NCBI RefSeq assembly: GCF_002968295.1
Contig: NZ_CP134399.1
Location: 2,790,001-2,854,000 of the forward strand
DNA length: 64,000 bases
Direction of reading: 5' to 3'
Source: Mycobacterium sp. ITM-2016-00317
GTDB taxonomy: Bacteria > Actinomycetota > Actinomycetes > Mycobacteriales > Mycobacteriaceae
Below the pieces are notes generated by a model that was not told the DNA's origin, searched no databases, and was given only the letters and a program-made list of their open reading frames with translations. A program made the position numbers and the translations under genes. Of this stretch, positions 50,249-60,764 are shown in pieces; the first letter of the stretch is position 1, and every line of letters starts with the position of its first letter.

Positions 50249-52892
<2,644 letters not shown>

Positions 52893-52900
52893 CCGGGCGT

Positions 52901-52906
52901 TAGCAT
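52901..52906 (+). promoter_or_regulatory. -10 element of the membrane cassette
   Basis: TAGCAT ends 8 bases before ATG 52915 with no ribosome binding site between, again a leaderless layout. It implies that the cassette can be transcribed apart from the arginine operon, whose last stop is 22 bases upstream of this ATG. Confidence 0.5.
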
Positions 52907-52914
52907 CCATCGGC

Positions 52915-53505
52915 ATGGACACCCGTGCCGTGCGCCGGTGGCTGGCCTCGCGGAAGGTGAGCCAGTGGTGGAGAGCCGCACTGGTGGTGATCCTGGGCGT
53001 CGCGGCGCTGTTCGGCGGGCTCGACCCCGTCGACACCAAGGCCACACCGTTCACGCCGGGGGAGGAGTTCAGCGACGGCCAGTTCACCGTGACCGTCGAC
53101 CGGGCCCGCCTCGTCGACGAGATCCGAGGCGGGGGACGGGTCGTCGGTACGGCCAAGCCGGGCCGCCGGTATCTCGGGGTGGTCGCGACCCTGCGCAACG
53201 ATGCGACCGTGCCGGGCCGGTTGCGCAACGAGCTCGACGTCCGCGACGTGCCGGGCAAGGAGTTCCATGGCGTGTTCCGCTTCCGGGACGGTTCGCCGAT
53301 CCAGAACCTGGGGCCCGGGCTGACCGAGCAGCTGGTCTTCGCCTGGCTCGTCCCCGACGATGTGCTGGGTGCCGGAGACACGGTGACGATCCGGATCTGG
53401 AAGAAACACCGTCGCCAGCTGATGGTCACCTACGGCGGGGAGGAGTGGCTCGACAGCCTGACCGACTACGGCGTCACCGAACTCCCGGTGGGAACGCCGT
53501 CGTGA
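52915..53505 (+). CDS. Membrane cassette protein 1, single-pass, external domain
   Basis: I do not recognise a named family. The 196-residue protein has a short basic cytoplasmic end, one membrane helix at about 20-38 (WWRAALVVILGVAALFGG) and an external domain of about 155 residues rich in beta-strands (FTVTVDRARLVDE, RYLGVVATLRNDATVPGRL, DTVTIRIWKKHR). The strand pattern is reminiscent of Ig-like DUF4352 domains. It overlaps the next gene by 4 bases (GTGA); the two following proteins have the same architecture and similar length. Co-function of the three is inferred from architecture and coupling. Confidence 0.72.
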   Translation: MDTRAVRRWLASRKVSQWWRAALVVILGVAALFGGLDPVDTKATPFTPGEEFSDGQFTVTVDRARLVDEIRGGGRVVGTAKPGRRYLGVVATLRNDATVPGRLRNELDVRDVPGKEFHGVFRFRDGSPIQNLGPGLTEQLVFAWLVPDDVLGAGDTVTIRIWKKHRRQLMVTYGGEEWLDSLTDYGVTELPVGTPS

Positions 53506-54071
53506 CGTATCGCAGCGCGAACCTCGGGACGGTGTGGTCGGCGATCGCCGTCGTCGCCACCGTCTCGGCCGCCGCGGTGATCTGGCACCACCTCCCGGCG
53601 CCCACCGATCTGTACGGCCCCTTCGACGTCCGCGGCGCGGCGGGCGACCGTGTCCAGGGCCGCGCAGTCGCCGCCACGGTGACCTCGGTACGTGTTGCGC
53701 CGCAGGTCAACTCGGTCACGGCGGCCGGCGACTGGGTTGTCGTCGACACCACCGTGGAGGCGACGCGCACCACCGAGCTTCCCCGAGCAGATCTGATCGT
53801 CGGCCCGAACCGATACCTGCCGTCGGACCGGTTCTTCGGAAAAAGCCTGATGGCAAAGATCTCCCCGGGTATCACCCAGCGCGGCAGCTGGGTGTTCGAC
53901 GTCGCCTCGGAACTCGTCGCGCCGGACGCCACCGAACCCATCACCCTGCGGGTATGGGTGGGCAGCGACATCCTGGATTCCCGTCTGGTCATCGATGTTC
54001 CCGCAGGCGACCCGCGCATCGCCAGGGCAGGCGATGTGGAACTCACCCCTCCGGAACTGAGTGCAGAATGA
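53502..54071 (+). CDS. Membrane cassette protein 2, single-pass, external domain
   Basis: A 189-residue protein with a membrane helix at about 9-27 (TVWSAIAVVATVSAAAVIW) and an external strand-rich domain: GRAVAATVTSVRVAPQV, DWVVVDTTVEATRTTEL, ITQRGSWVFDVASEL, ITLRVWVGSDILDSRLVIDV. The layout parallels its neighbours (early strand pair, a loop on ligand or partner contact, then a late strand pair). No catalytic motif or Cys is visible. GTG 53502 overlaps the previous stop and its own stop overlaps the next ATG, so production is coupled. Function unknown. Confidence 0.72.
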   Translation: MTYRSANLGTVWSAIAVVATVSAAAVIWHHLPAPTDLYGPFDVRGAAGDRVQGRAVAATVTSVRVAPQVNSVTAAGDWVVVDTTVEATRTTELPRADLIVGPNRYLPSDRFFGKSLMAKISPGITQRGSWVFDVASELVAPDATEPITLRVWVGSDILDSRLVIDVPAGDPRIARAGDVELTPPELSAE

Positions 54072-54571
54072 GCCGCATGGCGGCGCTGTGGCAGCGCAAT
54101 CTCACCGGCGCCGTCGTGGTCGCCTGTGCGGTAAGCGCTTTCGTCGCGCTCGATTTCGGCCCGCCGTGGGCGGCCTACCGGAACACGGTGACGCCCGAGT
54201 TGGTCGTTCCCGACGGTCGCAGCGGTACCGCGGACGGCCAGACCTGGAGGGTGGACTCCATCCGGTACCTCAATCGCCCCCCGCTGAGCTTCGGTCCGCA
54301 GCTTCCGGAGGGCACGGTGCTCACCGTGATCGTCGTCGACTGGACCGGGACTGCGCGCCCGGGCTACTGCAAAGGCGTCCTCACGGACGGGCAGCGTCGG
54401 TGGGAGGCCGAAGGAGTCGGCGGGTTCAGCCCGATCCCACCGGAGGGGATCAAACCGCTGTGCGACAAGCCGGGCCGGATCCAGTTCGGCTTCGTGCTGC
54501 CGTCGGATGTGGTGCCCACCGCGCTGGATGTCACCCACGACGGCCAGATCACGGCGCGGATGCTGTTGTAG
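54068..54571 (+). CDS. Membrane cassette protein 3, single-pass, external domain
   Basis: A 167-residue protein, the shortest of the three. Membrane helix at about 11-30 (LTGAVVVACAVSAFVALDFG), then an external domain with WRVDSIRYLNRPP, TVLTVIVVDWTGTARPGYC and IQFGFVLPSDVVPTALDV. Unlike the others it has a possible disulfide (GYCKG and KPLCDKP). Its last 23 bases overlap the end of the convergent polytopic gene. Function unknown; grouping rests on gene coupling and shared layout. Confidence 0.72.
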   Translation: MSRMAALWQRNLTGAVVVACAVSAFVALDFGPPWAAYRNTVTPELVVPDGRSGTADGQTWRVDSIRYLNRPPLSFGPQLPEGTVLTVIVVDWTGTARPGYCKGVLTDGQRRWEAEGVGGFSPIPPEGIKPLCDKPGRIQFGFVLPSDVVPTALDVTHDGQITARMLL

Positions 54572-55835
54572 CGTCCTTCGGGCGGACGTGCTCCAGGCAG
54601 TACGCGACCGTGGAGGCGATCAAGCAGATCCGCAGCGGCTCGATGATCAGGTGCGAGACGAACACAAGCGCCGGTTGCGCCCAGTCCCAGAACGCCATCG
54701 GATGCGGGCCGACAGCCCAGGCCACGCTGCGGAACAGGTACCCGGCCCGCACCTCCGGCCGGTAGAAACTGCCTGCCATGTCCAGCCACGCCAAGCCGAC
54801 GTAGCCCAGCACATACAGCGACAACGCCAGCACACCGCCGTGCAGGATGAGCCGCGCCGAGTCGGCGATGGGCCGGTAATTGCCCAGCCGCGACAGCGCC
54901 CAGTCGCGTGCCTCGTCGCGGCGGACATCGGACAGGCGCGACCACCGGGTCCGCACCTGCTGCTCCCGGGCGGCCGCCACTTCGAACACCCGGTCGGCTC
55001 GTCGGCCGGCGACCCGGCGCGCAGCGCCCCGCCAGTCCTCGGGCATGGTGACGCCGTAGATGATCGCGCCGACCGCCAGCCACAGCAGCGGTATCGTCGC
55101 GCCGCCGAACACCGTGCCCACAGCCCAGGCCACGGTGTCCCAGACCAGCTCCAGAGGGCGCAGATGGGAGAACAGCTCGGCGCGGGTTTCGGTGAACCAC
55201 ACGACGATCCGCCGTTCCGCCAGCCAGCCGGCGGGATTGATGAAGAAGGTGAGGTCCTTGCTGGCAGCGAAACTCACACCGAGAAACACCCACAGGGCGT
55301 CCACGTAGACCCGGACCGTGATCATCCAGCCGGGCAGGTTGTCCTTGAAACGGCTGAGTACATACCGCAGCACGAGCGCGGCGAAGATCAGTACCCAGGT
55401 GAGCGTGCTGACCGGCAGGGTTTCCGGGTGCAGCTCGGTGACTCCCGGAGTCACCACGGCATCGTCGATCCGATAGTCGAGCGCACGCGCCTGGAATGCG
55501 ATCCAGTCCTCGGCGAACAGCTTCCACGCCAGGTAGATCGCGAAGAACGGCACGATGACCGTCGAGAACACGTCGATGCCGCGCGCCGACCGCCGCGGTA
55601 GCGCCGCCAGTGCCGGGATCGCAGGCCGCAGCACGAAGAACATCGCGACGTAGGAGCCCAGTCGGGCCAGCCCGGCCAGCGGCATGATGAGCGAGGCCCA
55701 GACGTCGTTGTCGTGGCCGGCCCACGCCGCCAGCTCGATGGCGCCGCGCCGCCCGAGCATCCCCAGCAGATAGCACGCCGCCAACTGCGGCCAGTAGCGC
55801 AAACAAAGCACCGATGGCCGCAGCAGTGACGTCAT
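54549..55835 (-). CDS. Membrane cassette protein 4, polytopic, unknown function
   Basis: A 428-residue protein with about eight hydrophobic segments (for example LIMPLAGLARLGSYVAMFFVL, STVIVPFFAIYLAWKLF, WVLIFAALVLRYVL, IPLLWLAVGAIIYGV, LHGGVLALSLYVLGYVGLAWL). A charged cytoplasmic-type region at about 275-335 contains EDWRGAARRVAGRRADRVFE. I recognise no transporter or enzyme motif. It converges on the three single-pass genes and its 3' end overlaps the last of them, so the four genes are physically locked together. The ABC-F gene ends immediately upstream on the same strand with no gap, so these two are probably co-transcribed. Confidence 0.75.
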   Translation of the reverse strand: MTSLLRPSVLCLRYWPQLAACYLLGMLGRRGAIELAAWAGHDNDVWASLIMPLAGLARLGSYVAMFFVLRPAIPALAALPRRSARGIDVFSTVIVPFFAIYLAWKLFAEDWIAFQARALDYRIDDAVVTPGVTELHPETLPVSTLTWVLIFAALVLRYVLSRFKDNLPGWMITVRVYVDALWVFLGVSFAASKDLTFFINPAGWLAERRIVVWFTETRAELFSHLRPLELVWDTVAWAVGTVFGGATIPLLWLAVGAIIYGVTMPEDWRGAARRVAGRRADRVFEVAAAREQQVRTRWSRLSDVRRDEARDWALSRLGNYRPIADSARLILHGGVLALSLYVLGYVGLAWLDMAGSFYRPEVRAGYLFRSVAWAVGPHPMAFWDWAQPALVFVSHLIIEPLRICLIASTVAYCLEHVRPKDATTASAP

Positions 55836-57656
55836 CTAACTCTCAAGCCGTTCCGAGAGCTCCATCCAGCGCGACTCCAGTTCGGCCACCTGCTTCTCCA
55901 GGTCCCGCACCTCGGCGGTGAGCCGGCCGAGGCCGACGTGGTCGGACTGGTCGTGCGCGGCCATCTCGCCGTGCTTGGCGGTGATGCGGTCGGCCAGCTT
56001 GGCCAGCGACCGGTCGATCGACGAGATCTCCTTCTCCACGTTGCGCAGTTCGGCGCCGGACAGCCCCTCGGCGACAGCTTCTTTCGCACGGGGTGCCGAG
56101 CTTTCCGGCTGTGCCGCCGCGAGCCGGAGGTACTCGTCGATGCCGCCGGGCAGATGCCGGAGCCGGCCGTCGAGGATCGCGTACTGCTGGTCGGTGATGC
56201 GCTCGAGCAGGTATCGGTCGTGGGAGACCACGATCAGTGTGCCCGGCCACGAGTCGAGCAGATCCTCGGTCGCCGTGAGCATGTCGGTGTCGACGTCGTT
56301 GGTCGGCTCGTCGAGCACCAGCACATTCGGCTCCGACAGCAGCACCAGCATCAACTGCAGCCGGCGGCGCTGACCGCCGGACAGTTCGCCGACCCGCGCG
56401 GACAGATGCTCTCGCGCGAAACCCAGCCGCTCGAGCAACTGCGCGGGCGTCACGTCCTTGCCGTCGATCTGGTAGGTCGTCTGCAGGCGGGCCAGCACTT
56501 CGCGCACCATGTCGCCGGCCAGGGGATCCAGCTCCCGGGATTCCTGGTCCAGCACAGCCAATTGCACCGTCTTGCCGCGCTTGACCCGGCCCGCGGTCGG
56601 CGTCACCGTGCCCGCGATCAGGCCGAGCAGCGTGGACTTCCCGGCGCCGTTGGCGCCCAGGATGCCGGTGCGTTCACCGGGGGCGATCCGCCACTCGACG
56701 TCGCGCAACACCTCCCGGTCCGCGGAGCCGTCGGCGCCTGCCGGGTAGCTCACCGACACGTCGAGCAGGTCGATGACGTCCTTGCCCAGCCGGGCCATCG
56801 CCGCGCGGGACAGCTCCACGCTGTTGCGCAGCGGCGGGACATCCGAGATCAGCGCGTTGGCGGCGTCGATCCGGAACTTGGGCTTCGACGTCCGCGCAGG
56901 CGGGCCGCGGCGCAGCCAGGCCAGCTCCTTGCGCATCAGGTTCTGTCGCTTGGCCTCCACGGCCGCGGCCTGGCGGTCACGTTCCACGCGCTGCAACACA
57001 TACGCGGCGTAACCGCCCTCGAACGGCTCCACGATGCTGCCCTGCCCGCGCCCGGAACCGGGGGGATGGACCTCCCACGTGGTGTTGGCCACCTCGTCGA
57101 GGAACCACCGGTCGTGGGTGACCACCAGCAGCCCGCCCGATCCGCGGGCCCACCGCTGCTTGAGATGCGCGGCCAGCCAGGTGATTCCCTGGATGTCGAG
57201 GTGGTTGGTGGGCTCGTCGAGTGCGATGACGTCCCAGTCGTCGATCAGCAGCGCAGCCAGCTGCACGCGGCGGCGCTGACCGCCCGACAAGGTTCCGACC
57301 ACGGCGTCGAACGGGATGTCGGCGACCAGACCGCCGATCACGTCACGGACCCTCGATACACCGGCCCACACGTGGTCGGGTTGGTCACCGACCAGCGACC
57401 AACCCACGGTGCGCTCGCGGTCCAGCGTGTCGGCCTGGTCCAGCGATCCGACCCGCAGACCGCCACGGCGCGTCACCCGCCCCCCGTGCGGTGCGACGCG
57501 TCCGGTCAGCAGGCCCAGCAGGGTGGATTTGCCGTCGCCGTTGCGGCCGACGATGCCGATGCGGTCGCCTTCGCTCACTCCGACGGTCACCGAATCGAAG
57601 ACCACCCCGGTGGGGTACTCCAGATGGAGGTTTTCGCCTCCGAGCAGGTGTGCCAT
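55836..57656 (-). CDS. ABC-F family ATPase (Uup-like)
   Basis: A 606-residue soluble protein with two ABC domains and no membrane part. Domain 1: Walker A GRNGDGKSTLLGL, signature LSGGQRRRVQLA, Walker B VIALDEPTNHLD. Domain 2: GANGAGKSTLLGL, LSGGQRRRLQLM, VLVLDEPTNDVD. A linker of about 80 residues between the domains (RVERDRQAAAVEAKRQ) and a C-terminal coiled coil (ELRNVEKEISSIDRSLAKL to VAELESRWMELSERL) match Uup, which binds branched DNA or ribosomes. ABC-F proteins rescue or protect ribosomes; antibiotic resistance cannot be inferred. It abuts the polytopic gene downstream. Confidence 0.92.
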   Translation of the reverse strand: MAHLLGGENLHLEYPTGVVFDSVTVGVSEGDRIGIVGRNGDGKSTLLGLLTGRVAPHGGRVTRRGGLRVGSLDQADTLDRERTVGWSLVGDQPDHVWAGVSRVRDVIGGLVADIPFDAVVGTLSGGQRRRVQLAALLIDDWDVIALDEPTNHLDIQGITWLAAHLKQRWARGSGGLLVVTHDRWFLDEVANTTWEVHPPGSGRGQGSIVEPFEGGYAAYVLQRVERDRQAAAVEAKRQNLMRKELAWLRRGPPARTSKPKFRIDAANALISDVPPLRNSVELSRAAMARLGKDVIDLLDVSVSYPAGADGSADREVLRDVEWRIAPGERTGILGANGAGKSTLLGLIAGTVTPTAGRVKRGKTVQLAVLDQESRELDPLAGDMVREVLARLQTTYQIDGKDVTPAQLLERLGFAREHLSARVGELSGGQRRRLQLMLVLLSEPNVLVLDEPTNDVDTDMLTATEDLLDSWPGTLIVVSHDRYLLERITDQQYAILDGRLRHLPGGIDEYLRLAAAQPESSAPRAKEAVAEGLSGAELRNVEKEISSIDRSLAKLADRITAKHGEMAAHDQSDHVGLGRLTAEVRDLEKQVAELESRWMELSERLES

Positions 57657-57794: not shown

Positions 57795-60764
57795 GTGGTG
57801 GACCTCTCGGCGATCACCCGGCCGGTCGGACGGTTGGTCGCGACTGCCCAGAACGGGCTCGAGGTGTTGCGCTACGGCGGCTTGGAGACCGGCGCCGTGC
57901 CGTCGCCGTTCCAGGTCATCGAGAGCGTGCCGATGTACCGGCTGCGCCGCTACTTCCCGCCCGACAGCCGCCCGGGCAGCGCGCCCGTCGGACCTCCGGT
58001 GCTGATGGTCCATCCCATGATGATGTCGGCCGACATGTGGGACGTCACCCGCGACGAGGGCGCCGTCGGAATCCTGCACAAGGCCGGCATCGACCCGTGG
58101 GTCATCGACTTCGGCTCGCCCGACCAGGTCGAAGGCGGCATGCAGCGCAACCTCGCCGACCACGTGGTCGCGCTGAGCGAGGCCATCGACACCGTCAAGA
58201 CGGTGACCGGGCGCGACGTGCACCTGGCCGGCTACTCGCAGGGCGGGATGTTCGCGTATCAGACCGCGGCCTACCGCCGGGCGAAGGACCTGGCCAGCAT
58301 CGTGGCGTTCGGTTCGCCGGTCGACACGCTCGCGGCGCTGCCGATGAACCTGCCCGCCAGCCTGGCGCCCGTCGCCGCCGACTTCATGGCCGACCACGTG
58401 TTCAGCCGCATCGACATCCCGGGATGGCTGGCGCGCACCGGATTCCAGATGCTCGATCCGGTCAAGACGGCCCAGTCGCGACTGGACTTCCTGCGTCAGC
58501 TGCACGACCGCGAAGCGCTGCTGCCCCGTGAGCAGCAGCGGCGGTTCCTGGCCAACGACGGATGGATCGCGTGGTCGGGGCCGGCGATCTCCGAGCTGCT
58601 CAAGCAGTTCATCGCGCACAACCGGATGATGACCGGCGGCTTCTCCATCCACGGGGACCTGGTGACGCTGTCGGACATCGACTGCCCGGTGCTCGCCGTG
58701 ATCGGTGAGGTCGACGACATCGGCCAGCCCGCGTCCGTGCGAGGTATCAAGCGCGCCGCACCCCGGGCCGACGTGTACGAGTTCCTGATCCGGGCAGGCC
58801 ATTTCGGCCTGGTGGTGGGGTCGAAGGCCGCGACGCAGACCTGGCCTGCGGTGGCCGAGTGGGTGCGCTGGCTCGATGGCGGCGGCAGCATGCCCGAGGG
58901 CGTGACGCCGATGCCGGTGCAGCCGACCGAACCGAGCGAGCGCGGGGTGTCGCTGACCTCGAGGGTGACGCACAGCGCCACCGCGGCCACCGAGATGGCG
59001 TTCACCCTGGCCCGGTCCGCCGCCGACGCGTTCGTCGCGGCGAACAAGTCCGCGCGTGCCCTGGCCGTCGAAACCGCGCGCACGCTGCCGCGCCTGGCCC
59101 GTCTCGGCCAGGTCAACGACCACACCCGTATCTCGCTGGGCCGCATCATGACCGAGCAGGCACGGGACATGCCCCACGGTGAGGCGCTGCTGTTCGACGG
59201 CCGGGTGCACACCTACGAGGCCGTCGACCGGCGCATCAACAACGTGGTGCGCGGCCTGATCGGGGTCGGCGTGCGCCAGGGCGTGCGCGTCGCGGTCCTG
59301 ATGGAGACCCGGCCCAGCGCGCTGGTGGCGATCGCGGCACTGTCCCGGCTCGGCGCGGTGGCGGTGCTGATGCCGCCCGACGCGGACTTCGCCGAAGCCG
59401 CGCGGCTCGGCGCGGTGACCGAGATCATCGCCGATCCGACCAATCTCGAAGTGGCACGCAGACTCGGCATGCGGGTGCTGGTGCTCGGCGGCGGCGAGTC
59501 CCGAGACCTCGACCTGGCCGCCGACGACGACGTCGTCGACATGGAGAAGATCGACCCCGACCAGGTGAACCTGCCGGGCTGGTACCGGCCCAATCCCGGG
59601 CTGGCCCGCGACCTCGCCTTCATCGGCTTCAGCACCGTCAGCGGCAGCCTGGTGGCGCGTCAGATCACCAACTACCGCTGGGCGCTGTCGGCGTTCGGGA
59701 CGGCGTCGGCGGCCAACCTCAGCCGCAGCGACACCGTGTACTGCCTTACCCCGCTGCACCACCAGTCGGGGCTGCTGGTCAGCCTCGGCGGTGCGGTCGT
59801 CGGCGGTGCCCGCGTCGCGCTGTCGCGGGAGCTGCGTCCGGCCCGCTTCATGCAGGAGATCAGGCAGTACGGCGTGACGGTGGTCTCCTATACCTGGACG
59901 ATGCTGCGGGAGGTCATCGACGACCCCGCGTTCTCGCTGCACGGAAGCCATCCGGTCCGGCTGTTCATCGGCTCGGGTATGCCGGCCGGGCTGTGGACCC
60001 GGGTGGTCGAGGTGTTCGAGCCGGCCAACGTGGTGGAGTTCTTCGCCACCACCGACGGTCAGGCCGTGCTGGCCAACGTCAAGGGCGCCAAGATCGGCAG
60101 CAAGGGCAGGCCGCTGCCCGGTGGCGGCGAGATCGCGCTGGCCGCCTACGACCCCGTCGACGACGTGATCCTCGAAGACGAGCAGGGCTTCGTGCGCCGC
60201 GCCGAGGTCGGGGAGGTGGGCGTGCTGCTCGCCCACCCGCGCGGACCGGTGGACCCGCTGGCGTCGGTGAAGCGCGGTGTGTTCGCCCCCGCCGACACGT
60301 GGGTGTCCACCGAGTACCTCTTCCGCCGGGACGAGGACGGCGATTACTGGCTGGTCGACAACCGCGCCTCGGTGATCTGCACCCCCCGCGGGCCGGTGTT
60401 CGCGGCAACGGTCAACGACGCCGTCGGGCGGCTCGGCGCCGTCGACATGGCGGTCACCTACGGGGTGGAGGTGAACGGGCAGACGCGGGCGGTCACCGCG
60501 CTGGCGTTGTGTCCCGGCGGGAGCATCCCGTCGGCGGATCTCTCCGAAGCGCTGGGCGACCTGCCCGTCGGTCACGCGCCCGACATCGTGCACGTCGTCT
60601 CCGACATGACGTTGACCGCGACGTTCCGTCCGTTGGCCGGTCCGTGGGAGAAACAGGGGATTCCGAAGGCCTCCCGTAACGCCTGGTACCTGGACGCCGA
60701 TAGCAGTCGGTACAAGCGGTTGACCGCTGCCGTGCGCAGCGAGCTCGCGGGTGGTCAGCAGTGA
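57795..60764 (+). CDS. Fused alpha/beta-hydrolase / acyl-CoA synthetase-like protein (Rv1683 type)
   Basis: A 989-residue fusion. Residues 50-370 are an alpha/beta-hydrolase of the PHA-synthase/lipase group (LMVHPMMMSADMWD, nucleophile HLAGYSQGGMFAY, GEVDDIG, and IRAGHFGLVVG with the His). Residues 440-985 are an ANL adenylation domain (LLFDGRVHTYEAVDRRIN, FATTDGQAV, GSKGRPLPGGGEI, WLVDNRASVI). The usual TSGTTG-PKG loop is replaced by GFSTVSGSLVARQ, so ATP handling may be altered. The M. tuberculosis homologue was linked to triacylglycerol metabolism and lipid droplets. GTG 57795 follows GGGGAG. Confidence 0.93.
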   Translation: MVDLSAITRPVGRLVATAQNGLEVLRYGGLETGAVPSPFQVIESVPMYRLRRYFPPDSRPGSAPVGPPVLMVHPMMMSADMWDVTRDEGAVGILHKAGIDPWVIDFGSPDQVEGGMQRNLADHVVALSEAIDTVKTVTGRDVHLAGYSQGGMFAYQTAAYRRAKDLASIVAFGSPVDTLAALPMNLPASLAPVAADFMADHVFSRIDIPGWLARTGFQMLDPVKTAQSRLDFLRQLHDREALLPREQQRRFLANDGWIAWSGPAISELLKQFIAHNRMMTGGFSIHGDLVTLSDIDCPVLAVIGEVDDIGQPASVRGIKRAAPRADVYEFLIRAGHFGLVVGSKAATQTWPAVAEWVRWLDGGGSMPEGVTPMPVQPTEPSERGVSLTSRVTHSATAATEMAFTLARSAADAFVAANKSARALAVETARTLPRLARLGQVNDHTRISLGRIMTEQARDMPHGEALLFDGRVHTYEAVDRRINNVVRGLIGVGVRQGVRVAVLMETRPSALVAIAALSRLGAVAVLMPPDADFAEAARLGAVTEIIADPTNLEVARRLGMRVLVLGGGESRDLDLAADDDVVDMEKIDPDQVNLPGWYRPNPGLARDLAFIGFSTVSGSLVARQITNYRWALSAFGTASAANLSRSDTVYCLTPLHHQSGLLVSLGGAVVGGARVALSRELRPARFMQEIRQYGVTVVSYTWTMLREVIDDPAFSLHGSHPVRLFIGSGMPAGLWTRVVEVFEPANVVEFFATTDGQAVLANVKGAKIGSKGRPLPGGGEIALAAYDPVDDVILEDEQGFVRRAEVGEVGVLLAHPRGPVDPLASVKRGVFAPADTWVSTEYLFRRDEDGDYWLVDNRASVICTPRGPVFAATVNDAVGRLGAVDMAVTYGVEVNGQTRAVTALALCPGGSIPSADLSEALGDLPVGHAPDIVHVVSDMTLTATFRPLAGPWEKQGIPKASRNAWYLDADSSRYKRLTAAVRSELAGGQQ

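Follow-up and report, generated by a model that had tools for sequence, protein, structure and literature searches.

Four adjacent genes of Mycobacterium sp. ITM-2016-00317, here called A, B, C and D, appear to form one functional unit, and on balance we favor a cell-envelope complex in which D is the core and A, B and C are subunits on the outside. In this complex, D would be the integral core, and A, B and C would be single-pass subunits with the N end inside, whose outside domains (the beta-sandwiches of A and B and the two-cysteine domain of C) would lie over the outer face of D. These domains would recognize a ligand or hand it over; that ligand handling works by capping D is a tentative suggestion, tied to no specific substrate. 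The two halves would be made from convergent transcripts, of a leaderless type for A-B-C and often for D as well. The module matched no known system in the libraries compared, and no literature on it was found in open-access papers (most subscription journals lie outside this coverage). Four linked genes without a Pfam or NCBIfam match above cut-off, in a layout that is constant from mycobacteria to Sinorhizobium and Paracoccus, amount to a defined and testable envelope module, for which Sinorhizobium medicae WSM419, with the module on pSMED02, is a tractable host.

The cassette lies in a 64,000-nucleotide stretch of DNA (“the window”) from a 6.06 Mb genome assembled as a single contig. Among the named loci found by a pattern search of a collection with one genome per species, Mycolicibacterium vaccae has the gene D closest to that of the window (92%). 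The preliminary description of this DNA held that A, B and C are translationally coupled through GTGA and ATGA motifs, and that C overlaps the convergent D by 23 bases. The coordinates of the open reading frames (Table 1) bear out both statements: A and B overlap by four bases (GTGA, 53502–53505), as do B and C (ATGA, 54068–54071), and C and D meet tail to tail. A start codon giving a four-base overlap is available in 41 of 42 named loci for A/B and in 39 of 42 for B/C; because starts were picked nearest the preceding stop, these counts speak for the existence of such a start rather than for its use. The tail overlap of C and D ranges from 0 to 99 bases in 42 named loci, with 23 or 44 bases being commonest. 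Further along the window (57795–60764, plus strand) is a 989-aa ORF that resembles, by eye, an alpha/beta-hydrolase part fused to an acyl-CoA-synthetase part.

Table 1. Features of the four-gene cassette and its flanks (positions in the window)
Feature	Position	Strand	Description
argH	51480–52892		upstream flank of gene A
−10-like TAGCAT (leaderless-type promoter)	52901–52906	+	8 bases ahead of the ATG of A
gene A	52915–53505	+	196 aa; one N-terminal helix, predicted outside DUF4352/MPT63-like beta-sandwich
gene B	53502–54071	+	189 aa, GTG start; layout as A, homologous to A
gene C	54068–54571	+	167 aa; one N-terminal helix, predicted outside domain, conserved cysteines C101 and C132
C/D tail-to-tail overlap	54549–54571	.	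23 bases
gene D	54549–55835	−	428 aa; proposed core, an integral membrane protein with ~8 TM segments
ABC-F gene	55836–57656	−	convergent with argH; far flank of cassette

The four genes are present or absent almost as a whole. When single sequences were used to search 148 genomes of the genus, the positive genomes numbered 33 for A, 32 for B, 30 for C and 34 for D. A profile search that covered the window and 40 fetched regions placed all four genes in 33 of these 34 D-positive genomes, nearly always adjacent, and independent distribution of the four was not seen. These co-occurrence counts rest on stop-to-stop searches; the first gene calls skipped many B and C genes. The C profile of that search extended into upstream sequence, and the boundaries of C were redrawn afterward. 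The one exception (genome G157, locus L109, 7150–9458) lies beside an arginase gene and has an open D, a damaged C, a remnant of B and no A. Since an intact copy (L110) is flanked by the same kind of arginase gene, the exception looks like decay. One genome (G020) has a weak A-like match and no D; three loci (L082, L084 and L085) have one ORF split or short; and one (L098, 8984–11746) has an ArsR-type regulator and a SulP-type sulfate permease between C and D. Among the named loci, 42 of 43 hold all four genes at least in part, and the remaining one (L173) stops at a contig edge. The incomplete members are C of L155 and A of L165, which are short, and A of L176, which runs off its contig.

The argH site is one of many unrelated sites that show the order A>B>C> <D. 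Neighbors elsewhere include genes for a pyridine-nucleotide oxidoreductase, CinA, arginase, an endonuclease/exonuclease/phosphatase protein, ribosomal protein L13, delta-aminolevulinate dehydratase, a class-V aminotransferase, a SpoIIE-type protein and an MgtC-like protein (30 neighbors scanned). Within the order, the D profile matched 13 of 298 genomes, and within the phylum 7 of 296, counts that include mycobacteria; a 49-residue match in G703, among the seven, was left uncounted. Six other actinomycete loci (L127–L132), from other families, have A, B and at least a weak C convergent with D; C of L132 was matched only at E-values of 0.001 and 0.11.

The module also occurs in another phylum. 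A tblastn search with D found four Agrobacterium and Rhizobium plasmid records (23–24% identity over 95%). There (loci L180–L182), the mycobacterial profiles matched D (E-values of 1e-31 to 3e-34) and A (4e-10 to 4e-16) in the expected places, as well as B (5e-13 to 1e-17) and, with a loose profile, C (6e-6 to 4e-11). Another query brought the number of plasmid records to 41, from Sinorhizobium, Ensifer, Rhizobium, Paracoccus, Shinella and Agrobacterium. Thirteen alphaproteobacterial loci were read (L180–L182 and L228–L237; L183 comes from the same strain as L182). In 12 of the 13, A and B are convergent with D; the Shinella sp. WSD5-1 plasmid (L228, 4962–7985) carries D-A-B-C in one direction as a single operon. 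In the profile test of these loci, it is the first pass that counts, the E-values of the last pass being circular. The first pass matched B in all 13 loci, A in 12 (with E-values below 0.001 in 10) and C in two; D was also matched in all 13, by a profile that already contained D of L180, L181 and L182. A of the Shinella locus was picked up only in later, circular passes. In most of these loci, C is recognized only by its position, the loose profile or the cysteine pair, and it was not detected in L237. With gene D alone compared, further relatives were found in Devosia, Labrys, Mesorhizobium, Achromobacter and Pigmentiphaga. Phage records gave no match to the module at an E-value of 0.001, and viral contigs, scanned twice, gave none that was confirmed; the query of one scan reaches close relatives only.

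The constant order, the near-whole presence or absence, the survival of the set through an inversion of A-B-C relative to D and the recurrence of the outside proteins across phyla argue for a shared function. We give scarcely any credence to the alternative that the four are unrelated genes made neighbors by chance, which is already contradicted by the recurrence of the four, in one order, across unrelated sites, other families and another phylum. One observation does suit mere linkage. The distance matrices of A–D agree well (r of 0.91–0.94, 53 loci). At the argH site, however, the agreement is just as good for the adjoining ABC-F gene (r up to 0.96), such that the mirror-tree measure fails to single out A–D and is weakened as evidence of contact. 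A general partnership between D and ABC-F was considered and rejected: the latter is a ribosome-type ATPase and is absent beside D at other sites. Linked function need not mean contact; physical contact between A–D, like their topology, is something that we infer.

The two halves of the cassette differ in their promoter-like elements. We defined the promoter motif as TANNNT, then 6–9 bases, then (A/G)TGG in frame with the gene. The motif precedes A in 37 of 41 named loci, compared to 4 of the 313 other genes in these loci, a frequency beyond chance. In Mycobacterium tuberculosis, TANNNT is described as the usual −10 element, and leaderless starts as common (PMC3898074). By this precedent, and given the motif at A, A-B-C are probably leaderless here too. 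The motif also precedes D in 25 of 42 named relatives, compared to 10 of 321 control genes. Among the 17 D genes lacking it, 12 are those of L137–L148, the group nearest the window. Indeed, no such motif is visible upstream of D in the window, and the D start directly adjoins the stop codon of the ABC-F gene (55835–55838), so D probably shares the ABC-F transcript here. In the clade of the window, D seems to have joined that transcript and lost a motif that 25 of 42 relatives kept. The earlier claim that the cassette has its own −10 element holds for A-B-C, with the TAGCAT listed in Table 1; D in the window probably depends on ABC-F.

Convergent halves with overlapping tails invite a different explanation, in which the A-B-C and D transcripts limit each other in the manner of an excludon and the proteins act at different times. 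Overlapping tails raise the prospect of antisense effects, and excludons and noncontiguous operons are presented as a known principle in PMC7154746. The retention of a 0–99-base tail overlap in 42 named loci would fit such antagonism, as would separate promoter-like elements at A and, in 25 of 42 loci, at D. We nevertheless regard it as quite improbable: the Shinella cassette has all four genes in one direction, and the overlap is a few bases or nil in several alphaproteobacterial and other loci, meaning that antisense overlap and its effects are not essential.

Each of A, B and C has one hydrophobic helix near its N end, and the ratio of Lys+Arg to Asp+Glu ahead of the helix is 6:1 in A, 1:0 in B and 2:0 in C. 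An N-in orientation is therefore likely for A and suggested for B and C. D was first described as an eight-helix protein, and about eight is what we find: 8 TM-like segments when the profile is averaged over the family, and 7 when the single sequence is taken at the threshold used. The most basic loop of D (residues 260–328) lies between the sixth and seventh segments. We count the positive-inside loops and the single N-terminal helices in favor of the one-complex reading.

None of the four proteins matches a Pfam or NCBIfam model above its cut-off. A and B are homologous and resemble the beta-sandwich of DUF4352/MPT63-like proteins (YjhA, 3cfu; 4les; 5bxg; YcdA, 4r4g; MPT63, 1lmi), and the predicted fold of A is an extracytoplasmic sandwich of the YjhA/MPT63 type. 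However, A, B and C fall below every Pfam cut-off and are single-pass proteins that form a trio with a polytopic partner. DUF4352 itself (PF11611) has no match in A, B or C; one B homologue (L131) scores 19.1 bits, below the cut-off of 25.9. No homology of C to A or B is detectable, and C has two cysteines that are kept. The preliminary description had grouped A, B and C as three similar single-pass proteins and had proposed that they are external accessory subunits of a polytopic core. The layout is indeed common to all three and the shared ancestry holds for A and B; it does not extend to C. The core-and-subunits proposal is partly supported and is still the best reading, with the co-occurrence strongly in its favor.

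In mycobacteria, MmpS/MmpL pairs likewise consist of a polytopic membrane protein and a small partner that crosses the membrane once and has an outside domain. Nevertheless, MmpS and MmpL/RND models from Pfam and NCBIfam did not match A–D. Compared with MmpS/MmpL, the module differs in having three small partners, a convergent gene and fewer TM segments, and in occurring also in Alphaproteobacteria.

D has no match by sequence among solved structures, and neither Foldseek against the PDB nor a search of a viral fold library found anything at an E-value of 0.001. Internal repeats in D were not found between non-adjacent windows with a probability >3%. Of 53 D relatives scanned, three gave weak matches to Abhydrolase_9_N (best E-value of 0.0017), and other families were matched singly. 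The middling model of D weakly resembles the fold of the orphan CTL/SLC44 family (human CTL1, yeast PNS1), a rotary bowl built around three amphipathic helices, with a Z score of a size that can arise by chance for helical models; the comparison bears on the families in its list, to which CysZ and SLC25, for example, do not belong. We have considered, as a long shot, that D is a bacterial counterpart of the CTL/SLC44 bowl and that A, B and C are three caps, one per pseudo-equivalent face, in a pseudo-threefold hetero-tetramer. One membrane bowl with three lids would then have spread across phyla as a four-gene unit. Neither PF04515 nor a solved CTL chain matches D or its relatives in sequence, and CTL1 is described as having 10 TM helices (PMC13160678), compared to about 8 in D. 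The same paper presents the function of the CTL family as debated, and D, if it did have this fold, would make the family approachable in bacteria.

The patchy distribution of the cassette, with D in 34 of 148 genomes, raises the question of whether it is a portable membrane system against phage or plasmid entry, in which A, B and C would sense from the outside and D would be the membrane effector. Some genomes have several copies: G171 has six copies of D, of which two belong to tandem cassettes, and tandem pairs of diverged cassettes occur in L102 (6873–13141, in G171) and L103 (7128–13373). The 41 plasmid records, and one cassette beside traA/traD/traG of a conjugative plasmid, point the same way. 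We nonetheless consider such a defense or exclusion role unlikely. The component profiles of PADLOC-DB 2.0.0 did not match A–D of the window. Among relatives, in a scan that covered A and C relatives up to L180, 1 of 32 B members gave a weak local match to PDC-M32B, a PADLOC candidate defense protein (E-value of 0.0023, residues 34–75), with no system partner recognized, and 1 of 18 D members matched a 2TM effector (E-value of 0.027). No enzymatic effector domain was recognized, the scanned neighbors are mostly ordinary metabolic genes, and the argH-site cassette is mostly stably inherited.

This stability is seen in a tree of 53 D sequences, on which the argH label requires 3 changes, compared to 13.9 for shuffled labels, although branches are long and the deep part of the tree is unsure; the cassette at this site has thus mostly been inherited stably, with few moves. 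We also read 19 argH loci that lack the cassette. The ABC-F gene is in view in 11 of them, at 2–480 bases from argH in eight (with a small called ORF between in two) and at 889, 1264 and 4748 bases in the other three; we count the eight closely spaced empty sites in favor of one functional unit. It is out of view in eight, and in five of these argH is followed by an ORF of 287–353 aa and one of >2,000 aa. Four of the 19 genomes with an empty argH site (G011, G012, G028 and G157) have the cassette elsewhere. A typical mycobacterial argH-site cassette also occurs on a contig titled as an Acidobacteria MAG (L168), which is probably mis-binned.
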